Part shown: positions 7,900-51,728 of the stretch, piece after piece
Position numbering within the stretch: position 1 is the first letter of the stretch
How the letters are laid out: each line of letters begins with the position of its first letter
Source: Sphingobacteriales bacterium
Lineage (GTDB): Bacteria > Bacteroidota > Bacteroidia > Chitinophagales > CAIOSU01
Direction: 5' to 3'
DNA: 64,000 nucleotides
Assembly: GCA_027483645.1 (NCBI GenBank)
Contig: JAIXUD010000002.1
Coordinates: forward strand, 1-64,000
Translations under genes and position numbers: made by a program
Notes under the pieces: generated by a model
The model's database searches: none
The model's input: only the letters and a program-made list of their open reading frames with translations
What the model was told of the DNA's origin: nothing

Positions 7900-10800
7900 T
7901 TACTCCCGCAACACGGGCATGGCCTTTCTGCCCTGCTGGTTCTCCATCAGCAGCCAATAAGTACCCGCCGAATAGGGCTTCAAATCCAACTGTAATGTGG
8001 TAGTGTTTGGGTTGATTTCTTGCTGTTGCAGCACTTGACCCAGCGCATTTACCAGCCAGTGCCGCACAAACCCGTCTTGAACTTGCCAAGTAATATTTAC
8101 CGAACCGTTGGTGGGATTGGGGTATATATTGATTTGAGCTTCTAACGGATTCTTAACTCCCTGCCAAACCCCAAAACCATACGTGGTATCGTACACACAG
8201 CCATACGCATCCTGAATCCTTAACGAGCATTCCCTAGCGGGGTCGCCGGGCAAGCCACCCGTATATATCCGGCATTGCAGTTCGGCAATGGTGAAGGGGG
8301 CAGTGCCGCCAGTAATACTGTCCCAGCCTAGGCCGATGCTATCAAAAGTTTCGGCTACACCCCATACCTGCAAGGCTGTGGGTTGGGCAATGCTGTAACT
8401 ACCTATAGCCGTACAGCCGCGGCCATCGGTAACGGTTACTGCATAGTTGCCTGCGCTTAGGTTAGTAAGCGTAGCCCCGCTGCCAGTGTTCCATTGGTAT
8501 TGATAAGGCGCCCTGCCGCCCGCGGGGGTAAGGGTAATTGAACCTGTTTGCCCGACACAGTAGGCATCGCTCACAAAAGCGTTGATCAAGATGCTATCCG
8601 GCTCCCCAATCACCACTATCACACTGGCTATGCAGCCGTTGGCATCGGTGGTGGTTATGCTATATACACCAGCACTGAGGTTGTTTAGTTGCGTTGAGTT
8701 ACTACCCGTGTTCCATAGGTAGCTGTAGGGCCCGTTCCCACCCGAAACGCTCACGGTGATGCCGGCGTCCGCATCGCCTGGACAATTTAGGGAGTCAATA
8801 GTAGCGGTAATGGCAATACTGCTCACACTATTGATGGTAAACGAATTGCTAGCTATGCAGCCGTTGGCATCGGTGGTGGTTACACTATATACGCCAGCAC
8901 TAAGGTTGGTTATTTGGGTTGACGTGCTGCCCGTGTTCCACAAGTAGCCGTAGGGTCCATTACCACCCAAAGCGCTTACGGTAATGCCAGCATCCGCAGC
9001 GCCAGGGCAATTTAGGGAGTCAATAGTAGCGGTAATGGCCATACTGCTCACACTATTGATGGTAAAAGCTTCACTGTTGGAGCACCCATAGGCATCCACA
9101 ACAGTTACGCTATAGTTACCGGCATTCAGGCCGGTGCGGATGGCGGTGTTGTTCCCGTCGTTCCATATCAGGCTTAAAGCACCCGTGCCGCCGCTACCGC
9201 TTACGGCTATATATCCGCCTTGGCAACTGGCATCACTTAGGCTATCGGTGGTAATGGAAATGCTATCAGGCGATGCAATGCTTGTGCTGGCGGTAGCCGT
9301 GCAGCCCGCGCCATCGGTAACGGTGACGGTGTAGGTGCCTGCGGAGACGCCCACAATGGTTTGGAAGTTACCAGTTACGTTCCAAGCATAGCTATATGGC
9401 AACGTACCCGCCGAAGCGGTAACCGTTACCATGCCGTCACTGCCGCTATAGCAAATGGGTGGCGTACTACTCAATTGCAACGATGGATTGGGCGTGGAAG
9501 GGATGGAGAACACTTGGCTTACGGAGCAGCCATTGGCATCCGTTACCGAAACGGTAAATGCCCCCACGGGCATATTCGTGCGCACCGGACCGGTTGTGCC
9601 GTTGCCCCATACATAGGTGTACGGCGGGGTGCCGCCCGAACCCTCCACGCGGATGTAGCCGGGGTTGCAGGTTGCCGGCCTTAGGCTATCCACCGCCACG
9701 GACAAGCTGCCGGGGCAAGCCGCACAGCTCCACGTTGCCGCAAAGCCCGTACTGTTGATGCTGCAATCGCTAGTGAAGAGCAGGCTCATGGTGCCGCTGT
9801 TGGCCGTGAGCGTGCCTGGGTTTTGGGTGCCTGTGTACCGGCCCAGCAAGGTGCCACCCGTACCGTTGCCATCGTAGATATACAGCGAATCATATCCCGC
9901 CTCGGTACTGAAACTGGTAAAGTTAATGGTGACCGATACCGCGCCGGCAGGCTGAATAACGGTCAGGTATTTGGTGAGGTCGGTATAGTTGCCTGTGCTG
10001 CCACCGTTATCGGTAAGTGTGCCGATGCAAGCACTTAAGCGTGTGGTGGCAATAGTATCGTTAATCAGGTTGTGGTACAGCGGCCAGTTCCAGTTCACGC
10101 CAGGGTCGGTGTGGCTTTGGTTGGGGTAATGGGTGTGCCCTTTAATGCGGTAGCAACTGCTTAACACCACCTGCGCCGAGCCCTTGTACGTGCTCAGTGG
10201 GTTGATGATGTATTTGCCCGCCAGGTACTTCACCAAGTTGGCCGAGCTTTGGTACATGGCAGGGGTGTACCAACTTGGGTCGGTTACATACCCCTCGTGC
10301 TCAATGCCCACGGTGTAAGGGTTTTCGCTGCCCACATGGTAGGCGCGGTTGGCCTCGGGCACCATTTGGGTTACCTGCCCATCGCTGCTGCGTATCACGT
10401 AGTGGGCGCTCACGCCCGCATTACAGTTCTGGAACCACGAAATGCACCCCGCATAGCTGCCCTGCACCGTATGCACCGTAACCGCCGAAATAGCCGTGCC
10501 GTTGCGCGAGCCATAGTTGCAGCTCGCCGCGGGGTTCCATAGCGCATTGGGGTAATCGGCTGCGCTGCGGCTGTTGCTATAGGGTTGGCCTTGGCCGTTG
10601 GTAATACCCTGTGGCGATATAATCACTTGCCCGCTGCTCAGCACGTCATAATTCGCCCCAAACACCTGCCGCAAATCGATTTGATAAGCCGGGAAACCAT
10701 ATTGTTGCTGCTTTGCTGGGTCGTTTAAGAAGGTAAGTACGCTGTAGAAGTAGCTGTTAAGCGCAAAGTCGGCGCCTTCTAAGGTGTCAAGTGGCAGCTC

Positions 10801-11235
10801 GCTGAGGGCGGCCAAGATGGGCAACTGCGCTGCGAGGTCTTGATTGGCAAATGAGTATAGCCCATATTGCGCCCTCTCGTAAACGTGCGCAAAAGCCATG
10901 ATTTGTACACTAGGGTTACTTGCCAGTGATGTTAACGGTTGGTTCGTTATGCTGGCTAATAATTGCATGTTTTCCCTAAATACCCCTTTGCCATCGGCAA
11001 TCAGTCCCATTACGCCCACATACTGCGGTATGCCACTGCACCCAGATGCCTCGTTAGGCTCTACGTGGCGTATACGTGTTTGCGTATAGCTTATCGCTTC
11101 CAGCATCCCTCGGGGGATGGATGGGTACTGTTGATATGCTTGCTGAAATGCTTGGGCGTAGGGATAGGTGGTTTGGGCGGCCAAGGAGCCGGTGAGGGTG
11201 AGGGTAAGGAGGATTATGGTTAATAGGCGAAGCAT
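7900..11235 (-). CDS. Secreted N-acetylmuramoyl-L-alanine amidase with CUB domain, SprB repeats and T9SS sorting domain
   Basis: 1111-aa multidomain exported enzyme. A signal peptide (1-20) is followed by an all-alpha N-terminal region (about 25-200) and an amidase_2 domain (about 245-390) with metal-ligand candidates H255 (VTVHT), H367 (KGHTHY) and D377 in the TDPG motif, so peptidoglycan amidase activity is expected. A CUB-like domain (about 403-504; FTSFSTEAGYDSLYIYDG) precedes six SprB-type repeats of the form PYxYxWNxG...AGxYxVTVTDxxGC. The last 80 residues are a type A T9SS C-terminal sorting domain (INIYPNPTNG, SAGTYWLLM). Repeats 4 and 5 are a recent tandem duplication with a 225-base period. 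The protein is presumably delivered to the cell surface or medium through T9SS. Confidence 0.92.
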   Translation of the reverse strand: MLRLLTIILLTLTLTGSLAAQTTYPYAQAFQQAYQQYPSIPRGMLEAISYTQTRIRHVEPNEASGCSGIPQYVGVMGLIADGKGVFRENMQLLASITNQPLTSLASNPSVQIMAFAHVYERAQYGLYSFANQDLAAQLPILAALSELPLDTLEGADFALNSYFYSVLTFLNDPAKQQQYGFPAYQIDLRQVFGANYDVLSSGQVIISPQGITNGQGQPYSNSRSAADYPNALWNPAASCNYGSRNGTAISAVTVHTVQGSYAGCISWFQNCNAGVSAHYVIRSSDGQVTQMVPEANRAYHVGSENPYTVGIEHEGYVTDPSWYTPAMYQSSANLVKYLAGKYIINPLSTYKGSAQVVLSSCYRIKGHTHYPNQSHTDPGVNWNWPLYHNLINDTIATTRLSACIGTLTDNGGSTGNYTDLTKYLTVIQPAGAVSVTINFTSFSTEAGYDSLYIYDGNGTGGTLLGRYTGTQNPGTLTANSGTMSLLFTSDCSINSTGFAATWSCAACPGSLSVAVDSLRPATCNPGYIRVEGSGGTPPYTYVWGNGTTGPVRTNMPVGAFTVSVTDANGCSVSQVFSIPSTPNPSLQLSSTPPICYSGSDGMVTVTASAGTLPYSYAWNVTGNFQTIVGVSAGTYTVTVTDGAGCTATASTSIASPDSISITTDSLSDASCQGGYIAVSGSGGTGALSLIWNDGNNTAIRTGLNAGNYSVTVVDAYGCSNSEAFTINSVSSMAITATIDSLNCPGAADAGITVSALGGNGPYGYLWNTGSTSTQITNLSAGVYSVTTTDANGCIASNSFTINSVSSIAITATIDSLNCPGDADAGITVSVSGGNGPYSYLWNTGSNSTQLNNLSAGVYSITTTDANGCIASVIVVIGEPDSILINAFVSDAYCVGQTGSITLTPAGGRAPYQYQWNTGSGATLTNLSAGNYAVTVTDGRGCTAIGSYSIAQPTALQVWGVAETFDSIGLGWDSITGGTAPFTIAELQCRIYTGGLPGDPARECSLRIQDAYGCVYDTTYGFGVWQGVKNPLEAQINIYPNPTNGSVNITWQVQDGFVRHWLVNALGQVLQQQEINPNTTTLQLDLKPYSAGTYWLLMENQQGRKAMPVLRE

Positions 11236-31278: not shown

Positions 31279-32088
31279 TTAATCCTTAACTATATTAGGC
31301 ACATAATACGGGTACAAATCCCCTTCTGGTGCTTCGCACCCGCCCTTTACCTCATTGAAGCGGGTAAACAACTGGTGCATCCATTTGCTAACAGGGTTGC
31401 GCATGCGGCTTAACATATCTGCTATTTCGGGGTCGTTGGCCATTGCCTCTCGCATACAATTGCTATGGGGTTCAATGCGGCCCGTGGCGCTACCCAAACC
31501 CGGTATTTTTGTAGCAAGGCGAGTTGCACCGTTTAATGCCCAATAATCGGCCTCATCCCAAACGCCATCCTCACCTGGGCCCATGGGCAGCAGGCTCGGG
31601 AAGTCGCTCCAAGCCTCAATAAACGTTATCTCGCCTTGGTCGTTAAACGTAAACTCCTCATAAATGGGGCAGGTAAGGCCGCCATAGTTAAACACCACAT
31701 GGCAGCGGCAAAAAGGCTGCTCAGCAAAGTATCGGCAATCCAGCACGTCGTATTTAGTGGGCGTAAGTTTCAGCATAGCATCCGACAGTACCAGCGTACT
31801 CTTCTTATAGCCTGTAAGCAGCAACCACGGCTCCCATTCCCAACGGATTACCCGCCGAGCATACTCCGGTTGCACCCGCACCGGCACATCCGATTGCATG
31901 GTGAGGAAATACTTAACCCCTTGCTCAATATAGTATTCTGGAGAAAACTTGGGCGTAAGCACGGTGGCCAACGCGCAATCTTCTCCTTTGGTTGGCGTAT
32001 TAGTTTGCCCCACAGCCCCGCCCCATGAACCCAATAGGGCCAAGGATATCAGTATCAATTTGGTAGCTAAGATGTGCATGTGTTTCAA
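31279..32088 (-). CDS. Exported protein of unknown function
   Basis: 269-aa protein with an N-terminal signal peptide (about 1-28, ending AVGQ) and a mature part rich in Trp, Tyr and Cys. The segment YEEFTFNDQGEITFIEAWSD recalls NTF2/SnoaL-like folds, but this is weak. The C-terminal third (RMRNPVSKWMHQLFTRF) is helical. No catalytic motif is recognisable. Either of two close methionines (residues 1 or 4) could start it. It is divergent from the sodium:solute symporter gene, about 100 bases away. Confidence 0.6.
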   Translation of the reverse strand: MKHMHILATKLILISLALLGSWGGAVGQTNTPTKGEDCALATVLTPKFSPEYYIEQGVKYFLTMQSDVPVRVQPEYARRVIRWEWEPWLLLTGYKKSTLVLSDAMLKLTPTKYDVLDCRYFAEQPFCRCHVVFNYGGLTCPIYEEFTFNDQGEITFIEAWSDFPSLLPMGPGEDGVWDEADYWALNGATRLATKIPGLGSATGRIEPHSNCMREAMANDPEIADMLSRMRNPVSKWMHQLFTRFNEVKGGCEAPEGDLYPYYVPNIVKD

Positions 32089-32191: not shown

Positions 32192-33850
32192 ATGCACCTT
32201 AGTCCTGTTGATTACTTCGTTATTTCGTTGTATTTCCTTTTCGTGCTCGGCATTGGGTATGTCATTAAGCGGCGGGTGAAAACCAGTACCGACTTCCTAA
32301 TTAGCGACCGCAGCCTGCCGCTGTGGATTACCAGCTTGGCGTTTATTGCCGCCAACCTCGGCGCGCAGGAAGTAATCGGAATGGCTGCATCGGGTGCTAA
32401 GTACGGCATTATGACCAGCCATTTCTATTGGATTGGCGCTATACCGGCCATGGTGTTCCTCGGGGTGTTTATGATGCCGTTTTATTACGGCAGCCGTGCC
32501 CGCTCGGTTCCAGAGTATTTGGCGTTGCGTTTCGATGAAAAGACCCGTGGGTTCAATGCCATCACGTTTGCCCTTATGACCATCTTTTCGTCTGGTATAT
32601 CTCTATATGCCTTGGCGATGCTGCTGCAAGTGATTTTGGGTTGGAATTTCCACCTATCCATAGCATTGGCGGCGGGTATTGTGCTGCTGTATACGCTCCT
32701 TGGTGGGCTTACCAGCGCGGTGTACAACGAGGTGCTGCAGTTCTTTTTGATTGTGCTGGGCATTGCACCCGTAGTATTTGTGGGCCTGCACCAAATTGGC
32801 GGCTGGGAAGGTGTGGTAAACAACCTGCCCGATGTTATGACGCACAGTTGGGCGCATATGGATAATGCCGCCGACAACCCTATGGGCGTAAACCTATGGA
32901 GCATGGCCATGGGGTTGGGCTTTGTGCTCTCCTTCGGCTATTGGTGTACCGACTTTTTGGTGGTGCAGCGTGCCATGATAGCCCGCAGCATGAGCGCCGC
33001 CCAGCGCACGCCGCTGATTGCAGCCTTCCCTAAAATGTTGATGCCTTTTGTAGTGATACTGCCGGGTTTACTGATTATCGCCTTGCAAAACATTGGCATT
33101 AGCGAGCTGGACCTCCCCCTGAAAGCCGACGGCACTACCGATTACAACATGGCTTTGCCAACGCTTATTGGATATTACTACCCAACGGGTTTGCTGGGCG
33201 TGGGCATTACGGCTTTGCTGGCCTCGTTTATGTCGGGCATGGCGGGTAACGTTACGGCTTTTAATACGGTGTTTACCTTCGATATCTACCAAGCCTACAT
33301 TAACAAAAAAGGAACGGATAGCCACTACCTGAGCGTAGGTAAAATGGCTACCATCTTCGGTATTATCGCTTCGGTGGGTACGGCTTACGTGGCAGCGGGC
33401 TTCAATAACATTATGGACATGCTGCAACTGGTGTTCGGCTTTGTGAATGCGCCGCTCTTTGCAACGTTCTTCCTCGGTATGTTTTGGAAACGCACCACCG
33501 GCCACGCCGCATTCTGGGGCTTGGTGGCGGGTACCGTTGGCGCTGCCGTCTGCCATGGCATTACAGGGGCCGAGGGTAAGGGTGCTTGGCTAGGCGCCAA
33601 TATACACGAGTTTAGCAGCACCATGGCGCAAAGCTTTATGATTGCCATCGTATCATGGACGACCTGCTTTATAGTTACTATCCTTGTAAGCCTAGTTACT
33701 AAAGCCAAACCCGATAGCGAGCTGCGCGGCTTGGTTTACAGCCTTACCGAAAAGCCAAAAAGCGACGCCAAGCACTGGTACTTGCGCCCTGTGCCGCTGG
33801 CCATTGCCGTGCTTACCCTTACCATATTGCTTAACTTCATTTTTAGATAA
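32192..33850 (+). CDS. Sodium:solute symporter (SSF family, SLC5-like)
   Basis: 552-aa inner-membrane transporter with about 14 hydrophobic helices. The SSF signature regions are present: DYFVISLYFLFVLGIGYVIKRR at the start, TSTDFLISDRSLPLWITSLAFIAANLG, and the middle FGYWCTDFLVVQRAMIARSMSAAQRTPLIAAFPKM block. It resembles the sodium/sugar cotransporter branch. The substrate is not determinable from sequence alone. It is followed after only 6 bases by a 61-aa membrane protein, probably translated together with it. Confidence 0.92.
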   Translation: MHLSPVDYFVISLYFLFVLGIGYVIKRRVKTSTDFLISDRSLPLWITSLAFIAANLGAQEVIGMAASGAKYGIMTSHFYWIGAIPAMVFLGVFMMPFYYGSRARSVPEYLALRFDEKTRGFNAITFALMTIFSSGISLYALAMLLQVILGWNFHLSIALAAGIVLLYTLLGGLTSAVYNEVLQFFLIVLGIAPVVFVGLHQIGGWEGVVNNLPDVMTHSWAHMDNAADNPMGVNLWSMAMGLGFVLSFGYWCTDFLVVQRAMIARSMSAAQRTPLIAAFPKMLMPFVVILPGLLIIALQNIGISELDLPLKADGTTDYNMALPTLIGYYYPTGLLGVGITALLASFMSGMAGNVTAFNTVFTFDIYQAYINKKGTDSHYLSVGKMATIFGIIASVGTAYVAAGFNNIMDMLQLVFGFVNAPLFATFFLGMFWKRTTGHAAFWGLVAGTVGAAVCHGITGAEGKGAWLGANIHEFSSTMAQSFMIAIVSWTTCFIVTILVSLVTKAKPDSELRGLVYSLTEKPKSDAKHWYLRPVPLAIAVLTLTILLNFIFR

Positions 33851-34461: not shown

Positions 34462-34947
34462 TTACTTCATACCGAACCAAGAGCCGTTTTCCAGCTCGGC
34501 CAGGAAGAGGTTTTTATCGTTCTCGTCCACAATTTGGTCGGCGGCTTTATTTGCTAGCACATAGTATTGCTCAAACTCCAACCTATTGCCGCTCATGGCG
34601 TTGGCGCGTGCCATAGCTTCTAGTGCGAAAGCCAAATCGAAATCGCCCAGGCGCTGCTCTTGCGTAATCTCGAAACAGCGGCGGGCATAGTGTAGTGCCT
34701 GCGCTTTTTCGCCCACCATTAGGTATACCCGGGTAAGCTGCCACTGGCTGCGCTGCAAATGCTCCGGCTCGCCCACTTGCGACCAATGGAACGCGGCGGC
34801 ATGAGCGGCATGTATCATCAGCTCATCCTGCACCCTATCTCGCTGGGTACGGTCAAGCATATCCCACACCATATTGTACAATTCGGTAGCAAAATGGTGG
34901 TGCGCTTCGGCTATATCAAAATCCTCGGTATCTCTTTCGGTGGCCAT
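34462..34947 (-). CDS. Helical TPR-like protein of unknown function
   Basis: 161-aa soluble protein with acidic ends and a helical repeat pattern (WQLTRVYLMVGEKAQALHYARRCFEITQEQ resembles one TPR unit, then DFDLAFALEAMARANAMSGNRLEFEQYYVLA a second). There is no signal peptide. Just 4 bases upstream of the ATG, on the minus strand, is a TATCTTTG (34952-34959) that fits the -7 consensus. If real, the transcript would be almost leaderless. Co-transcribed with the membrane protein downstream. Confidence 0.65.
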   Translation of the reverse strand: MATERDTEDFDIAEAHHHFATELYNMVWDMLDRTQRDRVQDELMIHAAHAAAFHWSQVGEPEHLQRSQWQLTRVYLMVGEKAQALHYARRCFEITQEQRLGDFDLAFALEAMARANAMSGNRLEFEQYYVLANKAADQIVDENDKNLFLAELENGSWFGMK

Positions 34948-35037: not shown

Positions 35038-37206
35038 TCAATCAACCACCCCAACCGTTCTAAATATATGCCAAATGTTGCGGTAGAACGGCCCGTAGCG
35101 GTCATTGCTTACTTGCTTTTCCTCGCGAAGCCAAAAGTGCAAGTTGCTGGTAGTGTATAAATAACCGAAATAGTAGACTGTATGGCTCCAGTGTCGGCGC
35201 GCCAATAACCATACCGGGTAGCGGTAGTGGCCTTCTACTTGTTCTACTATCTTAATGCCATTTAAGCGCACGGCTTCGGCATCTATTAAGAATGGCGCAG
35301 CTGCTTTCTTGGGTTTGATGCCGCCATTCAGCTCAGCCTCACGCTTTTGCAACAAGCCCTCAATGGTAAGCGAGCGGTGTTGGGCTCGCAAGGCGGTAAT
35401 ATCCAGCGCCAATACCAACTCACCCAACAACCTGCTAAGCGCACTGTCTTTCACCGCTGCAAAAAAAGGAGAGTACTCCTGCGTGAGCGCCATACTCTTG
35501 TCATGGAAGTTTAGTAGCGGCCGTACGCCCTCAATACGTACGCTATCCAACGTAAGCTGGTCGGCTTTGTAGCGCAGGTAGCGGTACATCCAGCGCGGGC
35601 GGGGGTGGAAGGGCAGGTTCAGCTGCTCCGATGCCACTTCGTCGGTAATGTTCATGCCCACCATGTATTGCATTAGGTTGTCGCGCTTTAGATAAGCTTC
35701 GTGGAGCCTGTGCTGCTTAGCAAAGTACTCGCCTATTTTATCGCCAAACAGCTCTTCCAAATATTCGGTAGGGTTATGCTTAGCCGTTTTTTCGCCGTAG
35801 GTATGGTCCCAACTCCAGCGGGCAATACTCCAGTCTATCGTCCAATAGCCCCACTCCCAGCCGCTGCTGAAGGTTACGTGCCCTGGTACACCGTGCTTGG
35901 CCATGGTATCAATATCATCCAACCGGCCACCCAAGTAGGGCAACAAGTACATCGGTATCGAGTTATCAAACGTAATCCAATACGCACTCTCAGGGTAGTA
36001 CCAGGTCTCGCGCTGCTTTATCTCTTTGTTCAGCTCGTCCATCATGTGCTTTAGATTTTCGTTGCCGTAAACGGGTGCGCTTTCTTCGGTTGCGGTATAA
36101 AACATTACCGTATGTATCAGTATGCCGCGGTTGGCATCCAGTTGCTTTTCCTGTTCACTCATTGCATAACCATTCTCTTGGTTTGCTCCCACCATCATAT
36201 TGTCCTTCTTCACTACGTGTTTGCGGCCCATCAATTTGGCTCCGTATTTGTTGGTTATCACATCGGTTATGTGCAGGCGCTGTTGTTCTTTTTTGGTTAC
36301 GTTGCCCTCGCTAAACTCCGTACTGCTAAACTCCATATTTACTACATCCCAACCTATGGCCATTAGCCAGTCCAAGTTGCGGTCAATCTGCTTTTGCTTC
36401 GGCCTCCAGCTTTTCGGAAATCCCTCGTACAGCTTGTATGCGTTCTGCTGCAACATGTGTAGGCTAACGTCCACACCCATAATAATGCCGCGGCTCTTGC
36501 CATAATCCACAAACTGTTGCGCATAGGCAGGCCAGTACTTGCGGCTGATGCCTTCCAGTAGGTTGAACTCAAAGTAGTTCTGCCCGTTGCGCACCAGCCA
36601 ATCCAGGTACTCGTTCACTTCTGCAATGCCGCCTTCAAACTCATGATTGAGCAATTGCTGTGTAAGCTCTAGCGGGTGCATGGTATGCAGGTGAAATCCC
36701 TTTTTGTCGAACCGCGCCTTAGCCTCCCAAGAGAAGTCTTTCGGCAGCGGCCAAGTTATTAGTTTGGGTATGATGGTTTCTTTAGGATGATAAAATTTGA
36801 ATCCTAAATGCTCCTGCAACAAGCCATACAGCCCAAAGGCGATGCCTTGGTAAGATGGCGTTTCCAGCGTCATCACGATACCGCTGCCTGATGCGGAAGC
36901 ACGCCAAGTATAATCGTGGTCAGGGTATTGCAGGTAGGGGTATTGGGTAAAGTTTTTACTGAAACGGTTGGGCTGGTTGGCGCGGGTGGTATCTATGGCA
37001 GGCAGCTTGAGCACTACATCGCCGGTGGTACCATACTGCACCGTGCAGTTGCAGGCTTGGGTGAGCAGAGCGCTTACATCAGTAAGGGTAATGCGGGTAA
37101 TGGAATTTTCCAGCACAGCTGGCGGGGCATCAATAGCAATAGTGTTGATGGCTTGCGATGCGTGCCAGCCCAACAGCATCAAGCAAACGAGTATAATATG
37201 GCGCAT
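35038..37206 (-). CDS. Putative secreted glycoside hydrolase, (beta/alpha)8-barrel type
   Basis: 722-aa exported protein with a signal peptide (about 1-19). The segment GIAFGLYGLLQEHLGFKFYHPKETIIP (about 123-150, read in parts) matches the accessory N-terminal domain seen before the barrel of GH67 alpha-glucuronidases, GH20 and DUF4838 proteins. The following part has barrel-like blocks: NEYLDWLVRNGQNYFEF, RGIIMGVDVSLHM and GWDVVNMEFSSTEFSEG (the last a candidate acid/base region). The C-terminal third is helical. No T9SS domain or lipobox is present. It is probably a periplasmic carbohydrate-active enzyme of an uncharacterised family. The catalytic residues are inferred, not established. Confidence 0.6.
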   Translation of the reverse strand: MRHIILVCLMLLGWHASQAINTIAIDAPPAVLENSITRITLTDVSALLTQACNCTVQYGTTGDVVLKLPAIDTTRANQPNRFSKNFTQYPYLQYPDHDYTWRASASGSGIVMTLETPSYQGIAFGLYGLLQEHLGFKFYHPKETIIPKLITWPLPKDFSWEAKARFDKKGFHLHTMHPLELTQQLLNHEFEGGIAEVNEYLDWLVRNGQNYFEFNLLEGISRKYWPAYAQQFVDYGKSRGIIMGVDVSLHMLQQNAYKLYEGFPKSWRPKQKQIDRNLDWLMAIGWDVVNMEFSSTEFSEGNVTKKEQQRLHITDVITNKYGAKLMGRKHVVKKDNMMVGANQENGYAMSEQEKQLDANRGILIHTVMFYTATEESAPVYGNENLKHMMDELNKEIKQRETWYYPESAYWITFDNSIPMYLLPYLGGRLDDIDTMAKHGVPGHVTFSSGWEWGYWTIDWSIARWSWDHTYGEKTAKHNPTEYLEELFGDKIGEYFAKQHRLHEAYLKRDNLMQYMVGMNITDEVASEQLNLPFHPRPRWMYRYLRYKADQLTLDSVRIEGVRPLLNFHDKSMALTQEYSPFFAAVKDSALSRLLGELVLALDITALRAQHRSLTIEGLLQKREAELNGGIKPKKAAAPFLIDAEAVRLNGIKIVEQVEGHYRYPVWLLARRHWSHTVYYFGYLYTTSNLHFWLREEKQVSNDRYGPFYRNIWHIFRTVGVVD

Positions 37207-37729: not shown

Positions 37730-39736
37730 ATGAAAGCAACCCATTTTTTATTGAGCACCTTTCTTGCTGCCAGCATGGCGGTGCATACGCCGCTTGCCGC
37801 CCAAGATGCCGATACCACTGCCAAATTCCACATTAGCAATGAACCGGTGGAAAAGGCCGATACCAAGAGTTATTTCATTCCGCCTTTTGCCTTTACCAAC
37901 CTCAATTCGCCAGTATACTTCGTTGATGCCAAGAAGCTGAAAAACCTGGAGAAGCTGGAAGCCTCCAATAAATTACCCGAGCTGAAAGAAGCTTTGGAAG
38001 AATACATTAGCAGCTTTAGTGGCGAAAACTTCGGTCAGGATTATGAACTGATGTGGAAACTAGCCCAGCTTTACGAAAAAGACGACCAGCTAGACAACGC
38101 CAAGTGGCTTTACCGCATACTGCTTCGCCACAGCGAAAGCCACATTGAAAAGATAGCGCAGTTTTATGAGGCGCTTACCGTAAACGATAAAGACTATTAC
38201 GTACCTATTTCTTTCTACTACGAACTGGTGGAATACCGCCGCCAAGTGGATACGCTGATACCGCCGCAAGGGGTTTTCTTGAACATGGGAGCCAGCGTAA
38301 ACAGCGAGTTTGAAGATTATGGCCCATCGCTGAGTACCGATGATGAGATAATGTTCTTCGGCACCAAGCGAAACCGCCGCACCATCAAGGGTGTGGAGCA
38401 CATCAACGAGGATGTATACTACAGCAACCGCGATGAGAACGGCGGCTGGGGCGAGGCCTTGCCACTGGAAGGCATCAACAGCCCATATAACGATGGTGCC
38501 CCCTACCTTACCCGCGATGGCAACACCCTATACTTTGTACGCTGCGAAGCGCCCGGCGGCCTTGGCCGTTGCGACCTATACGTGGCCGACAAACAAGATG
38601 ACGGCACTTGGGGCGATGTGCGCAATCTAGGTCCGAATGTCAATACTGAGCACTGGGACAGCCACCCATCGCTTTCGCATAGTGAGGATACCCTGTACTT
38701 TACCAGTGACCGCCCAGGTGGTTTTGGTGCCAACGACATATACTACACACACAAAAACAAGCACGGCGAATGGATGCCTGCCCAAAACATGGGGCCCATC
38801 ATCAATACCCGTGGCAATGATTTAAGTCCGTTCTATCACCCAGTGCACCACGTGTTCTATTTTAGCAGCGATAATCAGGTACTGAACTTCGGCCACTTCG
38901 ATATCTATAAGAGCCGTTGGCTGGGCGCGCAGTGGGAAGAGCCTAAAAACATTGGACCGCTGGTAAACGGCTGGGGCGATGAGCACTTTTTTACCATCGA
39001 TAGCAAATCAGAAAACCTATACTATGCCCGCAGCGAGCAGGAAAACATGAAGCAGGTTGACCTGTTTTCGTTCCCGTTGCCGATGGAGGCGCAGCCACTT
39101 GCCTTTACGGTGTTCAAAGGCTCTATTGTAGATTCCGCCACGGGCAATCCTTTTACCGGCATCGTTTCGATCATCGATTTGGATAACGGGATAGAGGTAG
39201 CGCCCAAGTTTGTACGCCCCGATGGTTCATTTGAGTTTGATTTGATTGATGAGAACCGCTACCTGCTGGTAATACAGGGGGAGGATTTCTTCCGGGTAGA
39301 GCAACATATTGATCTGAATGGCGATACCACCGTAACCATTGCGGTGCCTACTATTGACGTAGTGAAGATTCAGTTTACCTCTATTGAGTTTGAATCTAAT
39401 AGCTCGGAGATTACAGAGGGTATGAAGCCCGATTTGTTTAATCTGATGAACTACATGATTGATAACCCAACCATTGATTTGGTTATCAGTGGCCATACCG
39501 ATAGCCGTGGCGACCCCGAGAAGAACATTTACCTATCGCACCTGCGTGCCTTGGCCATTAAAGACTTCCTGACCGAGAACGGCGTTATAGAACCCGACCG
39601 CATTGATGCGCAAGGTTATGGCAGTACCCAGCCTATCATCAAGGAAGAGCTAACCGAAGAAGACCGCAAGATAAACCGCCGCGTGGAGTTTGAAATACTG
39701 AAACCCAGCGAAACCGACCATGCCGACCAAGAGTAA
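37730..39736 (+). CDS. PorE-like OmpA-family outer-membrane protein
   Basis: 668-aa envelope protein. A signal peptide (1-24) is followed by a TPR-like helical region (about 75-165) and a six-bladed PD40/WD40-type propeller (about 185-440; YGPSLSTDDEIMFFGTKR, APYLTRDGNTLYFVR, HPSLSHSEDTLYFTSDRPGG). A carboxypeptidase-regulatory-like domain (about 455-535) precedes a C-terminal OmpA peptidoglycan-binding domain (about 545-655; SGHTDSRGDPEKNIYLSHLRA). This order is that of PorE, the T9SS component thought to anchor the machine to peptidoglycan. Bacteroidota carry several paralogues, so PorE itself is not proven. No other por/gld gene lies nearby. Confidence 0.85.
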   Translation: MKATHFLLSTFLAASMAVHTPLAAQDADTTAKFHISNEPVEKADTKSYFIPPFAFTNLNSPVYFVDAKKLKNLEKLEASNKLPELKEALEEYISSFSGENFGQDYELMWKLAQLYEKDDQLDNAKWLYRILLRHSESHIEKIAQFYEALTVNDKDYYVPISFYYELVEYRRQVDTLIPPQGVFLNMGASVNSEFEDYGPSLSTDDEIMFFGTKRNRRTIKGVEHINEDVYYSNRDENGGWGEALPLEGINSPYNDGAPYLTRDGNTLYFVRCEAPGGLGRCDLYVADKQDDGTWGDVRNLGPNVNTEHWDSHPSLSHSEDTLYFTSDRPGGFGANDIYYTHKNKHGEWMPAQNMGPIINTRGNDLSPFYHPVHHVFYFSSDNQVLNFGHFDIYKSRWLGAQWEEPKNIGPLVNGWGDEHFFTIDSKSENLYYARSEQENMKQVDLFSFPLPMEAQPLAFTVFKGSIVDSATGNPFTGIVSIIDLDNGIEVAPKFVRPDGSFEFDLIDENRYLLVIQGEDFFRVEQHIDLNGDTTVTIAVPTIDVVKIQFTSIEFESNSSEITEGMKPDLFNLMNYMIDNPTIDLVISGHTDSRGDPEKNIYLSHLRALAIKDFLTENGVIEPDRIDAQGYGSTQPIIKEELTEEDRKINRRVEFEILKPSETDHADQE

Positions 39737-46745: not shown

Positions 46746-49700
46746 ATGATTCGCCTGGGATTCCGACAGTTGCAAGGGAAACGAAACCAGTTAATACGCA
46801 CTAAAACTTCTTTTCAGGTGAAAAATTCGCGCATTATCCTTTTAGTTCTTGGCTTGTTACTTTGGGGCAATACATACGCTCAACTGAACGTAACGGCCAA
46901 CAACAATGCCAATGCTTTGCTGAGCTCCATCATCGGACAGGGGGTTACTGTAAGTAATGTCACACTCAATTGCCCCAATGGTGCATCTGGCACCTTTACT
47001 ACCGGCGCCAGTGGCAGCAATCTCGGTTTATCATCAGGTATGATGCTTACCACCGGCCTTGCTTCAAATGCAGCTGGGCCTAATAACATAAGATGGGTAA
47101 ATTTTAATAGCGGCGTCACTTTGTCAGACCCAGACATAACAGCCCTTGAGCCATTGGCAATATACGACCCATGTATATTGGAGTTTGACATTATACCTAC
47201 TTGCGGTACGCTGAGTATCAACTACGTTTTTGGCTCTGATGAATACATGTTTTTTGTGAATGCCGGGTTTAACGATGCTTTTGGCTTTTTTATCACTGGT
47301 CCCAACCCAGGTGGTGGTAACTATACAGGATTAAACATTGCCCGAACTGCTGGTACCAACATCCCGGTTACTATTGACAATATCAATCTATTCACTAACA
47401 GCATTTACTATGTTGATAATGATGACGGCACCTGCCCGGGCTTTCCGCCTTTCATCCCTTACCCAGTTACTTGTACCAACCCTAGATATATACAGTACAA
47501 CGGGTTTACTATCCCACTTACTGCATCGGTAGCAGTGGTGCCGTGCTCTACTTACCGCATGAAATTGGCAATTGCTGATGCCGGCGATGGAGATCTTGAC
47601 TCTGGTGTGTTTTTTGCTGCAAGTGGTGTAAATGGTGGTGGCTTATTCTGCCAGGGGGCTACCAACTTGAGCCTAACCTTTACTACAAACCTTACCTGCA
47701 CTGCCCCTAATAGTGGCACAGCCACCATAAACCCAACAGGTGGCAACCCGCCATACAGCTATATCTGGAGTAATGGGCAAACCACTCAAACCGCAACCGG
47801 CCTTAGCGCAGGCACCTATGACGTAACCGTATCTGATAATGCCTGTTCACAAGCGAATACTAACTTTAGCATCGTGCTGGTTACTACTGGCCCTACCCTT
47901 ACCTTTACCCAAACCAACATACCTTGTACTGGTGGCACTACCGGCGCGGCCACGGTGAATATTACTGGCGGCACCCCGCCGCTTACCATTGCCTGGTCTA
48001 ACGGTGTAACCACTGCCAACAACCCGAACCTTACCGCAGGTACCTACGGGGTAACTGTAACTGATGGTATCGGTTGCCTGGGCATAGGGTCAGTAACCAT
48101 AACACAAGCAGGCAACTTATCCGCTACGGCTACTGCTACCGCATCGGCATGTAGCCCCGCTATAACTGGCACCGTAAACGTAACCGCCGCTGGTGGCACC
48201 CCACCATATACTTACGCGTGGAGCAATGGCCCTACCACACAGAGCCAAGCTGGCCTTGCAGCTGGCACCTATAGCGTAACCGTAAGGGATAATGTGAGCT
48301 GTACCATCATTGCCAGTACTACCGTAACTGCCCCCACTACCTTTACGCTTGCATTTGCCTCTACCCCTGGTAATTGCACGGGCCCCAATACCTCGTCAAT
48401 CAACCTCACCACTTCCGGCGGATTGGTACCCTTTACCTACGCTTGGAGCAATGGAGCGGCCACAGAAGACCTTAACAACGTGGCAGCCGGAAACTACACC
48501 GTAACCGTAACCGATGCCAACGGCTGCCAGGTAATTGGCGCTGCAGCGACCACGGTACCAACCCCTGCTGTGGCTACTGCAGCCGCTACGCCGGTTAACT
48601 GCTTTGGCGCTGCTAATGGCACTGCTACCGCCACCCCAACTGCGGGGGGTGCGCCATACACTTACGTATGGAGTAATGCTGGTAACACTAGCCAGATTAC
48701 CGGCCTTACAGCCGGTACTTATACCGTAACCGTAACTGGTGCAGGCGGCTGTAGCGCGGTAGCAAGCGCTACAGTAACAGGCCCAGCTGCTGCATTAACG
48801 GAGAGTGTAATTGGTACTAACCCAACCTGTCCGCAGCTAAACAATGGTACGGTAAACTCAAACCCAGCGGGCGGAACCCCACCATATACCTATGCTTGGA
48901 GCAACGGCCCCGCTACTACCCAAAACCAAACCGGCCTAGTGGGTGGTACTTATACTGTGACTGTTACCGATGGTGCGGGTTGCACGGTCACGGCCAGCAC
49001 CGTTTTGGTTGCGCCAAATACGTTTACACTAGCCTTGGGCAGCACAAACGGCAACTGTACGCAGCCCAACTCGGCGGCAATTAACTTAACGGTGAATGGC
49101 GGTTTGGCTCCGTTTGTATTTGCTTGGAGCAATGGTGCAAGTACCGAAGACATTACTAACCTAATTGCTGGTACCTACACCGTAACCGTTACCGATGCCA
49201 ACAATTGTGTAGTAATTGGCGCGGCCACACTTACCGTACCCACGGCTACTACAGCTACGGCCACAAGCACCCCTGCAAGCTGCTTTGGTGCCAATGATGG
49301 CACTGCCACAGTAACCCCAACTGCCGGCGGGCCGCCGTATACGTACCTTTGGAGCAACGCTGCCACCACCAATACCATTACTGCTGTCGCTGGTACATAC
49401 ACCGTGACCGTAACAGGTGCCAGTGGCTGTACCGTAGCGGTAAGCACCACGATAACCCAACCAACCGCACTCACGGTAACCACCTCATCAACCAACCCTA
49501 CTTGCCCTAGCCTAAACGACGGCGATGCCACCGCTAACCCAGCAGGTGGCACCCCGCCATACGCCTATTTATGGTCGAATGGGGATATTACCGCTAGTAC
49601 CACAGGATTGGTTGCGGGAGGATACAACGTAGTGATAACCGATGCCAATGGCTGTACCGCTACCGTTTCGGTTGCTTTGGCCAACCCACCTGCCGTAAAC

Positions 49701-51728
49701 GTAGCCGTAACGGTTACCCCGGAACAGTGTAACACCCCTAACTCTGGCTCGGCAACTGCTGTTGTTAACGGGGGTACCGCGCCATTTGGTGGAGTATGGA
49801 GCAATGGCTTCAACGGGATCAACCCTACCAACCTTGCCCCTGGCCCTTATAGCGTAACCATTACCGATGGTAACAATTGCACGGCTAGCGCCAGCGGAAC
49901 GGTAATTGCATCTACCTTGCCAACGGTAACCTTAGTGCCTACTAACCCCGGTTGTAATGGCGCCAGCACCGGTAGCCTAAATGCTACAGGCAGTTTTGCC
50001 ACTTTCACTTGGAGCAATGGCGCAGTTACCAACCCAGCCATTGGTTTGGTGGCAGGCAGCTATGATGTTACAGTAGTGGATGCTAACGGCTGCACTGCTA
50101 GCGCCAGTGCTACCTTAACCGACCCTACCGCACTTACTCTAAGCCTTACCCCTACCCAACTAGACTGCAACATCCCTAATACAGGTGCTGTAGTGGCTGC
50201 CGGGAATGGTGGTACAGCGTCGTTGACTTATTTGTGGTCAAACAACGCTACTACTGCATCTATTAGTAGCTTGGCACCAGGCACTTATTCCGTTACCGTT
50301 ACCGATGGCAATGGCTGTACCATTAGCGATGCCGCTACTCTAGCCACGCCCAACAGACCTACATTAGCCCTGAACGTAACCCCAGTAGATTGCTCAGGCC
50401 CTAATAGCGCAGCGGTAGATGCGGTAGTAACCGGCGGCACCATGCCGATTGGTTATGCTTGGAGCAACAGCGCCACCACCCCAGGCATTGCTGGCATTGG
50501 TGCTGGAACGTATACGGTAACCATTACTGATGGGGCGGGCTGTACCGCTGTAGCCTCGGTAAATGTATCTGCGATACCAGTGTTGCCGACAACGGTTGAC
50601 ACTAGCGACCCAACTTGCTTCGGCGCCACAGATGGTAGGATTGATGTTTTTGGGCCGTTTACTAACTTCAATTGGAGCCAGACTGGCCTCAGTATGCCTG
50701 CAACCAACCTTGGCGCGGGTACTTATAGTGTAACGGTAAGTGACAATGGCGGCTGCTCAGCCACCCGCACCTTTGTGCTGGTAGAGCCGAGTGAGCTAAC
50801 CCTAGCCATAGCCCCTACCCTTATTGATTGCAATGACCCCAATTCTGGCGCGCTAGCAGCCAGTGTAAGTGGCGGGGTGCCTGCATATGCCTACCAGTGG
50901 AGCAATGCCGCCAGTATACCAGCGCTTAGCGGCCTTGGTGAAGGCACCTATGGCTGCACTATTACCGATGCCAATGGCTGTACAGTAGCCGCTACTGAAA
51001 CGCTGGCTCCTAACCCAGCCCTTACTGTAAGCCTCGGCCCTGATGTGGTGCTTTGTGGCGGCGAGTCGGTTACGTTTAACTTAGATACCATTACCGCACC
51101 GATGGTTTGGCACGAGGGTAGCACCATTAACAGCTTTACAGCAACCACCGCAGGCACGGTAACTGTTACCGTTGATTACCCGAACGGCTGCCCAGCAACC
51201 GATGAGGTGCAGGTTACAGTTGAAGAAAGTGTAACGTTGTACGAAACTAATGACACCATCATTTGCAATACCCAGAGTGTGGAGTTTGTGGTAGGCCCTA
51301 GGGGCTTTGTATATGAGTGGTCGGATGGTAGCTTGGGCCCCGAGATACTGATTGTTGACTCGGGTACTTACATTGTAACTGCTACGAGCAACTGTAATGT
51401 GGTTACGGATACCATCAACGTAATAGTGGAGCGATGCAACTGCGAAGTATTTTTGCCAAATGCCTTCTCGCCCAATGGGGATGGGGTAAACGATGAGTTT
51501 AAGGCCTATGCCGGTTGCACACGGATACAGGGCTTCCGCCTAGAGGTGTTCGACCGCTGGGGAGCCTTGGTGTTCAGTAGTAATGATTTTAACAAAGGTT
51601 GGAATGGGCTAATGAGTAACCAACTATGTATTGTGGGTGTGTATGTATGGCAGGTATCGTTTGTTGAAGCCATTAATGGCCGCAACTACGAAAAATCCAA
51701 AAAGGGTAGCGTAGTATTGCTTAAGTAA
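46746..51728 (+). CDS. Giant SprB-repeat adhesin with choice-of-anchor L and gliding-associated C-terminal domain
   Basis: 1660-aa exported surface protein. After the signal segment (about 27-46, ending TYAQ) comes a choice-of-anchor-L domain (about 50-305; LEFDIIPTCGTLSINYVFGSDEY, FGFFITGP). Fifteen SprB-type repeats follow (PxYxWSNG...L.AGTYxVTVTDxxGC, about 75-85 aa each, to about residue 1420). The last ~90 residues form the gliding-motility-associated (CHU_C, type B) sorting domain (FLPNAFSPNGDGVNDEF, VFDRWG). Repeats 3-5 and 6-8 are a block duplication with a period of about 680 bases. The annotated ATG gives a 24-residue basic extension before the signal; a GTG at 46818 would give a classical signal peptide. 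Likely a T9SS-exported adhesin. Confidence 0.92.
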   Translation: MIRLGFRQLQGKRNQLIRTKTSFQVKNSRIILLVLGLLLWGNTYAQLNVTANNNANALLSSIIGQGVTVSNVTLNCPNGASGTFTTGASGSNLGLSSGMMLTTGLASNAAGPNNIRWVNFNSGVTLSDPDITALEPLAIYDPCILEFDIIPTCGTLSINYVFGSDEYMFFVNAGFNDAFGFFITGPNPGGGNYTGLNIARTAGTNIPVTIDNINLFTNSIYYVDNDDGTCPGFPPFIPYPVTCTNPRYIQYNGFTIPLTASVAVVPCSTYRMKLAIADAGDGDLDSGVFFAASGVNGGGLFCQGATNLSLTFTTNLTCTAPNSGTATINPTGGNPPYSYIWSNGQTTQTATGLSAGTYDVTVSDNACSQANTNFSIVLVTTGPTLTFTQTNIPCTGGTTGAATVNITGGTPPLTIAWSNGVTTANNPNLTAGTYGVTVTDGIGCLGIGSVTITQAGNLSATATATASACSPAITGTVNVTAAGGTPPYTYAWSNGPTTQSQAGLAAGTYSVTVRDNVSCTIIASTTVTAPTTFTLAFASTPGNCTGPNTSSINLTTSGGLVPFTYAWSNGAATEDLNNVAAGNYTVTVTDANGCQVIGAAATTVPTPAVATAAATPVNCFGAANGTATATPTAGGAPYTYVWSNAGNTSQITGLTAGTYTVTVTGAGGCSAVASATVTGPAAALTESVIGTNPTCPQLNNGTVNSNPAGGTPPYTYAWSNGPATTQNQTGLVGGTYTVTVTDGAGCTVTASTVLVAPNTFTLALGSTNGNCTQPNSAAINLTVNGGLAPFVFAWSNGASTEDITNLIAGTYTVTVTDANNCVVIGAATLTVPTATTATATSTPASCFGANDGTATVTPTAGGPPYTYLWSNAATTNTITAVAGTYTVTVTGASGCTVAVSTTITQPTALTVTTSSTNPTCPSLNDGDATANPAGGTPPYAYLWSNGDITASTTGLVAGGYNVVITDANGCTATVSVALANPPAVNVAVTVTPEQCNTPNSGSATAVVNGGTAPFGGVWSNGFNGINPTNLAPGPYSVTITDGNNCTASASGTVIASTLPTVTLVPTNPGCNGASTGSLNATGSFATFTWSNGAVTNPAIGLVAGSYDVTVVDANGCTASASATLTDPTALTLSLTPTQLDCNIPNTGAVVAAGNGGTASLTYLWSNNATTASISSLAPGTYSVTVTDGNGCTISDAATLATPNRPTLALNVTPVDCSGPNSAAVDAVVTGGTMPIGYAWSNSATTPGIAGIGAGTYTVTITDGAGCTAVASVNVSAIPVLPTTVDTSDPTCFGATDGRIDVFGPFTNFNWSQTGLSMPATNLGAGTYSVTVSDNGGCSATRTFVLVEPSELTLAIAPTLIDCNDPNSGALAASVSGGVPAYAYQWSNAASIPALSGLGEGTYGCTITDANGCTVAATETLAPNPALTVSLGPDVVLCGGESVTFNLDTITAPMVWHEGSTINSFTATTAGTVTVTVDYPNGCPATDEVQVTVEESVTLYETNDTIICNTQSVEFVVGPRGFVYEWSDGSLGPEILIVDSGTYIVTATSNCNVVTDTINVIVERCNCEVFLPNAFSPNGDGVNDEFKAYAGCTRIQGFRLEVFDRWGALVFSSNDFNKGWNGLMSNQLCIVGVYVWQVSFVEAINGRNYEKSKKGSVVLLK

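Follow-up and report, generated by a model that had tools for sequence, protein, structure and literature searches.

The closest described systems and the architecture of the protein

GH20 beta-hexosaminidases carry an adjacent Asp-Glu catalytic pair after strand 4 of the barrel, GH84 enzymes carry an Asp-Asp pair, and in several related families catalytic carboxylates are found where barrel strand 4 ends. The DUF4838 domain is linked to GH163. In amidohydrolases, the active centre is assembled round metal from an HxH on strand 1, an acid or lysine on strand 4, histidines on strands 5 and 6, and an aspartate on strand 8.

The gene described here lies in a 64,000-nucleotide stretch of DNA from a Sphingobacteriales bacterium, designated “the window” at its full length. 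It is an intact open reading frame with an ATG start, comprising 722 codons and a stop. Coordinates of the gene and its parts are given in Table 1.

Table 1. Features of the gene in window coordinates, with the evidence for each
Feature	Positions	Strand	Basis
Whole gene (722 aa), glycosidase-fold family without Pfam/NCBIfam match	35038..37206	-	ORF and homologues
Signal-peptide-like start, residues 1-19, hydrophobic, SQA end	37150..37206	-	By eye; modelled helix 2-15
GH20b/GH67N/DUF4838-type alpha/beta accessory domain, residues 20-165	36712..37149	-	hhalign; AlphaFold2 model
(beta/alpha)8 barrel, residues 166-470	35797..36711	-	Models (full chain and barrel alone); structure searches with barrel
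HLHTMHPLE, residues 172-180 (H172, H174, H177, E180), end of/after strand 1	36667..36693	-	108-row conservation
NMEFSSTEF, residues 290-298 (E292, E297), strand 4 end	36313..36339	-	108-row conservation
H330, directly after strand 5	36217..36219	-	106/108 rows
H365, strand 6	36112..36114	-	108/108 rows
E406, strand 7 end	35989..35991	-	107/108 rows
E451, loop after strand 8 (SSGWEW)	35854..35856	-	108/108 rows
Helical C-terminal domain, residues 480-722	35041..35769	-	AlphaFold2 model; invariant residues in 108 rows, gaps aside

A structure was predicted with AlphaFold2 from the 74-sequence alignment described below (mean pLDDT 92.6, pTM 0.92, 579 of 722 residues at a pLDDT of at least 90). 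The model consists of an alpha/beta domain (about 20–165), eight barrel strands in order (168–173, 211–215, 242–248, 288–292, 324–329, 361–367, 401–406 and 442–446) and a helical domain (about 480–720). When residues 160–482 were folded alone, the same eight strands were obtained at a pLDDT of 88.2. An earlier note on this DNA, made by reading the sequence, had described barrel-like blocks, and these correspond to a complete (beta/alpha)8 barrel. Its expectation that the accessory domain precedes a glycosidase barrel agrees with the model, in which a GH20b-like domain comes directly before the barrel, as in GH20.

Structure searches were performed with the full chain and with the barrel alone. 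Full-chain Foldseek placed GH138, GH115, GH67 and GH84 on top, with E-values from 1.1e-13 to 2.2e-10 over most of the chain; among the 50 matches listed, these alignments were loose (TM 0.36–0.53, rmsd 7.6–12.5). With VIA-align, the highest-scoring full-chain match was GH20C (Z 21.7, rmsd 5.2, 481 residues aligned), and FjGH20 (Z 20.8, rmsd 3.3, 357 aligned) and GH84 (Z about 20.5) were also found; the GH20C and GH84 matches span residues about 20–705. For the barrel alone, Foldseek ranked a GH20 protein, GH5 and GH84 highest, and VIA-align gave GH20C (Z 20.5, rmsd 3.2, 264 aligned), GH84 (about 18.4) and GH67 (17.9). The GH20 beta-hexosaminidases GH20C and FjGH20 therefore share the N-terminal domain and the barrel fold with the window protein at Z 20–22, and GH84 O-GlcNAcases have the same architecture at a Z of about 20. 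The GH67, GH115 and GH138 uronidases have the same three-part architecture of accessory domain, barrel and helical domain, a likeness at the level of fold only, and gave the best full-chain Foldseek E-values among the matches listed, GH138 being the top match.

Profile comparisons were made with hhalign. The family profile matched 15 GH20 proteins over residues about 1–243 (prob. 96.4, E 1.2e-9), including a PRFxxRG-like entry into strand 1 common to both families, and 8 DUF4838 proteins over residues about 1–170 (prob. 91.7, E 7.6e-7), where significant similarity ends; the accessory domains of DUF4838 and the window family have an LLExxLGxxxY...IP pattern in common. For the GH67 (10 sequences), GH115 (15) and GH84 (3 sequences only) sets, the probabilities were 0.1, 3.3 and 0.4. 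The domain that the earlier note had called GH67/GH20-type is thus recovered through GH20 and DUF4838. In alignments forced to full length against GH20, DUF4838 and GH84, later barrel strands were not credibly aligned. No Pfam match was found for GH67, GH115 or GH84 (PF07555), and DUF4838/GH163 (PF16126) matched neither the window protein nor any of 74 family barrels. GH138 was compared in sequence through the PDB search described below.

Membership in GH20 itself was considered and rejected despite the common fold. The Asp-Glu pair is absent, E292 and E297 of NMEFSSTEF not being adjacent, and the strand-1 arginine of GH20 (RG) is unmatched, aligning with K169 (Lys in 39, Arg in 23 and another residue in 12 of 74 sequences; Lys or Arg in 62/74). 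PF00728 matched neither the window protein (E ≤ 1) nor any of the 74 barrels (E ≤ 0.01). The Asp-Asp pair of GH84 is likewise absent from NMEFSSTEF. The earlier note had raised a conserved Asp/Glu pair; the adjacent GH20 kind is missing, and E292, E297 and E406 are among the acids that are conserved.

We lean towards reading the protein as an exported glycoside hydrolase from an as yet undescribed family in the GH20/GH84/GH67/GH115 superfamily. The confident fold, the structure matches, the GH20 and DUF4838 profile matches and the retained acids and histidines at strand ends all favor this reading, whose computed basis comprises fold, conservation, distribution and absence from HMM libraries.

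Family libraries, distribution and phylogeny

Neither Pfam nor NCBIfam contained a match to the window protein at E ≤ 1, and the earlier remark that it resembles no recognised family holds for these HMM libraries. Its best E-values were 0.25 against PHROGs and 2.3 against PDB sequences. Sixteen members scanned singly in Pfam yielded seven single matches (best E 0.052), and a profile of 16 members found no match at E ≤ 10 among 177,635 PDB sequences, those of GH138 included. Scanning 74 barrels gave one barrel matching one unrelated Pfam family (E 0.0052) and one barrel matching one unrelated NCBIfam family (E 0.0006); ten whole proteins from distant branches had no Pfam match at E ≤ 0.01. A literature search by family names and terms, covering mostly papers outside subscription, returned no description of the family in titles or the opening parts of abstracts. 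“Undescribed” is accordingly set against Pfam, NCBIfam, PHROGs, PDB sequences and this literature.

It is unlikely that the protein belongs to an existing CAZy family beyond the coverage of Pfam, NCBIfam and the PDB. In favor of such membership, a CAZy family may in some cases have no Pfam counterpart, and the comparison covered Pfam, NCBIfam, PHROGs and PDB sequences. Against such membership stand the lack of a Pfam or NCBIfam match for the protein and of any match common to more than one of the 74 barrels, the failure of the family profile to match a PDB sequence, and the silence of the literature searched by family names, which is compatible with it all the same.

Relatives were sought in a collection of 84,980 species genomes; 138 were found and 80 of them retained. 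Alignment A2 was built from 73 of these plus the window protein (74 sequences), leaving out the near-copies L039, L043 and L086 and the partial sequences L063, L068, L095 and L098. A 108-row set was made from A2 by adding 36 rows, including those seven, and removing 2 identical rows; some genes are still duplicated in it, entered under different record names (L171, for example, comes from the genome that also contains L091). We found no model for the family in Pfam or NCBIfam even though 54 columns of A2, E297 among them, are invariant across several phyla. With identity to the window protein falling to 37% in A2, such conservation is not due to chance.

Of 60 related genomes, 18 had a match, among them all 7 from the same genus and family, a figure that counts the own genome. 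Sixteen of the 18 had one long match each, one (G020) had two pieces, and one (G007) had a 42-residue remnant. Within the order, matches were found in 42 of 149 genomes, some as fragments only, and in a thin draw across the phylum the only match among 395 genomes was the own genome. Among 117 genomes of the class to which a Geobacter-type carrier belongs, 17 matched, one over 40 residues only and one with two partial matches on different contigs. Seven named carriers had one match each. Two partial matches per genome were found in G020, G469 and G520, and the second match in G473 is 35 residues long; for full-length matches, a single copy per genome is usually the rule. Occasional loss of the gene is suggested by stop-containing pieces in G020 and G520.

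Carriers belong to the Bacteroidota, Geobacter-type Thermodesulfobacteriota, Nitrospirota and Deferribacterota. In a quick maximum likelihood tree of 74 sequences, a branch with an SH-aLRT of 99 separates the 57 rows labelled Bacteroidota from those of Thermodesulfobacteriota (8), Nitrospirota (3), Myxococcota (3) and Deferribacterota (1). Note that phylum labels come from the record titles given by submitters, and that most of these records are MAGs. Four phyla is the safer count, since the three rows labelled “Myxococcota” carry the title “Deltaproteobacteria bacterium” and are nested within the Geobacter-type rows. Among the 74 rows, nothing in the tree pointed to recent exchange between Bacteroidota and the other phyla. 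If the protein is an enzyme, Saprospira-like, Geobacter-like and Nitrospira-like bacteria would have in common a glycan-processing step of which we found no description.

Predicted export and genomic context

Export was assessed by a simple and crude hydropathy test on the first 50 residues. Of 77 family members, counting the window protein, 67 had a hydrophobic stretch, versus 317 of 666 neighbouring proteins from the same loci. Half of the 10 members without such a stretch start at a non-Met residue, and their true start is possibly upstream. A lipobox-like motif was found in 5 of 77. The window protein is probably exported, to the periplasm or beyond, and the word “secreted” in the earlier note stands as likely.

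Across 81 loci (80 plus the window), no neighbouring family was present in more than 11, and that one lay at scattered positions; conserved neighbour blocks were limited to near relatives. Use of an operon or neighbourhood as a guide to substrate was therefore rejected, there being no widely recurring neighbour. In the window, the flanking SSF symporter (32192–33850) and TPR ORF (34462–34947) are not shared partners, and the divergent OmpA/PD40 gene (37730–39736) adjoins family genes in only a few loci. No match to PF00728, PF16126, PF07488, PF15979 or PF07555 was found in the own genome. The lack of shared neighbours and of these five families argues weakly against a role in polysaccharide utilisation.

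A scan of ten upstream genes found a YegS-like lipid kinase at the Geobacter-type loci L091, L099 and L103, MauG and MbnP at L101, and adenylosuccinate lyase at L041; the rest were mutually unrelated. At L091, L099 and L103, the gene for the YegS-like diacylglycerol kinase ends about 20 bases or less upstream of the family gene, an arrangement that may hint at co-transcription.

Promoter-like sites near the gene in the window were fewer than in shuffles (1 versus a mean of 5.4), and terminator-like sites were near expectation at 5 against 4.1, so neither was used as evidence. On the viral and plasmid sequences scanned, a mobile or viral origin was rejected: ten viral stretches matched a pattern and none was confirmed as a relative, and there was no plasmid match. 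Elsewhere in the window, the genes at 46746–51728 (+) and 7900–11235 (-) encode large proteins that combine SprB repeats with type IX secretion signals, the latter also containing an Amidase_2 domain. A 269-aa ORF at 31279–32088 (-) begins with a hydrophobic stretch, judged by eye, and matched neither Pfam nor NCBIfam at E ≤ 1.

Conserved residues and the putative active site

Residue conservation was counted over the 108-row set. The conserved residues at strand ends are H172, H174, H177, E180, E292, E297, H330, H365, E406 and E451, and each is kept in 106 to 108 rows when Asp at E292 is counted. In the strand-1 group, H174, H177 and E180 occur in every row and H172 in 107. The acidic region that the earlier note had singled out lies at the end of strand 4, with E297 in 107 rows and position 292 being Glu in 92, Asp in 15 and Ala in 1. 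W402 on strand 7 is present in all 108. In the C-terminal domain, Y663, Y678, Y682, W692, R694, E695 and E696 are invariant, gaps aside. Invariant residues were compared between the catalytic and the opposite face of the barrel, and showed no significant excess (19/137 versus 4/44, Fisher p 0.60).

Losses are few. H330 is missing in two rows only: in L115, together with H172 and S248, and in L086 (Saprospira grandis DSM 2844), which has E292A, E297A and H330Y. L079 (S. grandis Lewin) has E406G. The two S. grandis copies thus lack different candidate residues, as if the enzyme were decaying in the species. Co-losses of candidates were not significant (P 0.08–0.26).

If the protein is a glycoside hydrolase, its GH20b-like domain would be followed by a catalytic barrel and then by a helical domain likely to assist in closing the active site, itself placed at the C-terminal mouth of the barrel. 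One of the strand-4 carboxylates, Glu292 or Glu297, would be the candidate general acid, and Glu406 on strand 7 the candidate base or nucleophile. H172, H174, H177, H330, H365, W402 and E451 may line the sugar pocket. Enzymatic activity itself is something we infer, and several observations count against the glycosidase reading: the looseness of the Foldseek alignments, the lack of excess on the catalytic face, Asp at E292 in 15/108, the losses in S. grandis, and the lack of a visible sugar-utilisation neighbourhood. The usually single copy, the lack of widely shared neighbours and the presence of the gene in Geobacter-type bacteria, which are not known for breaking down polysaccharides, make it more likely that the substrate is a glycan the cell itself produces or encounters than a polysaccharide used as food. 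The confident model should ease the planning of active-site mutants and substrate screens.

The same residues could instead hold a divalent metal, with H172, H174, E292, H330, H365 and E451 forming an amidohydrolase-like centre on a GH20-like scaffold. The sequence positions of the HxH, acid, His, His and acid partly match the metal-centre pattern, these residues are conserved, and H330 is lost only with H172 and S248 or with E292 and E297. In two papers on GH115, a structural relative, a divalent ion is involved in the Michaelis complex and alanine at one histidine lowers activity about 10^5-fold (PMC9063842, PMC3879575). The window family fits the picture given there, of one scaffold supporting several chemistries. 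Nevertheless, no amidohydrolase was among the 50 matches listed in either barrel search, strand 8 ends five residues before E451, such a centre would leave the similarly conserved E406, H177, E180 and E297 unexplained, and the co-losses are not significant. We regard a metal-dependent enzyme of this kind as improbable. Slightly less probable is its fuller version, in which the amidohydrolase-like centre arose independently inside the GH20b-barrel-helical architecture, in a lone exported enzyme of several diderm phyla that remodels the cell's own glycans.

Least probable of all is a non-catalytic glycan-binding or structural protein retaining a glycosidase fold, a doubtful reading that would suit the lack of shared locus context and the absence of candidate residues in two S. 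grandis genomes but leaves near-universal polar strand-end residues, kept across several phyla down to 37% identity, to be accounted for.

Returning to the glycosidase reading, three sequences from the same order (L175, L176 and L177; E about 1e-91 to 1e-87) form a divergent branch. They lost 11, 13 and 14 of 60 conserved barrel positions and none of the 10 candidates; for 12 losses, P was 0.087, and retention of the candidates is only suggestive. They lack the barrel aromatics W450, W452 and W464 while keeping the candidate acids and histidines, and perhaps act on a different substrate.
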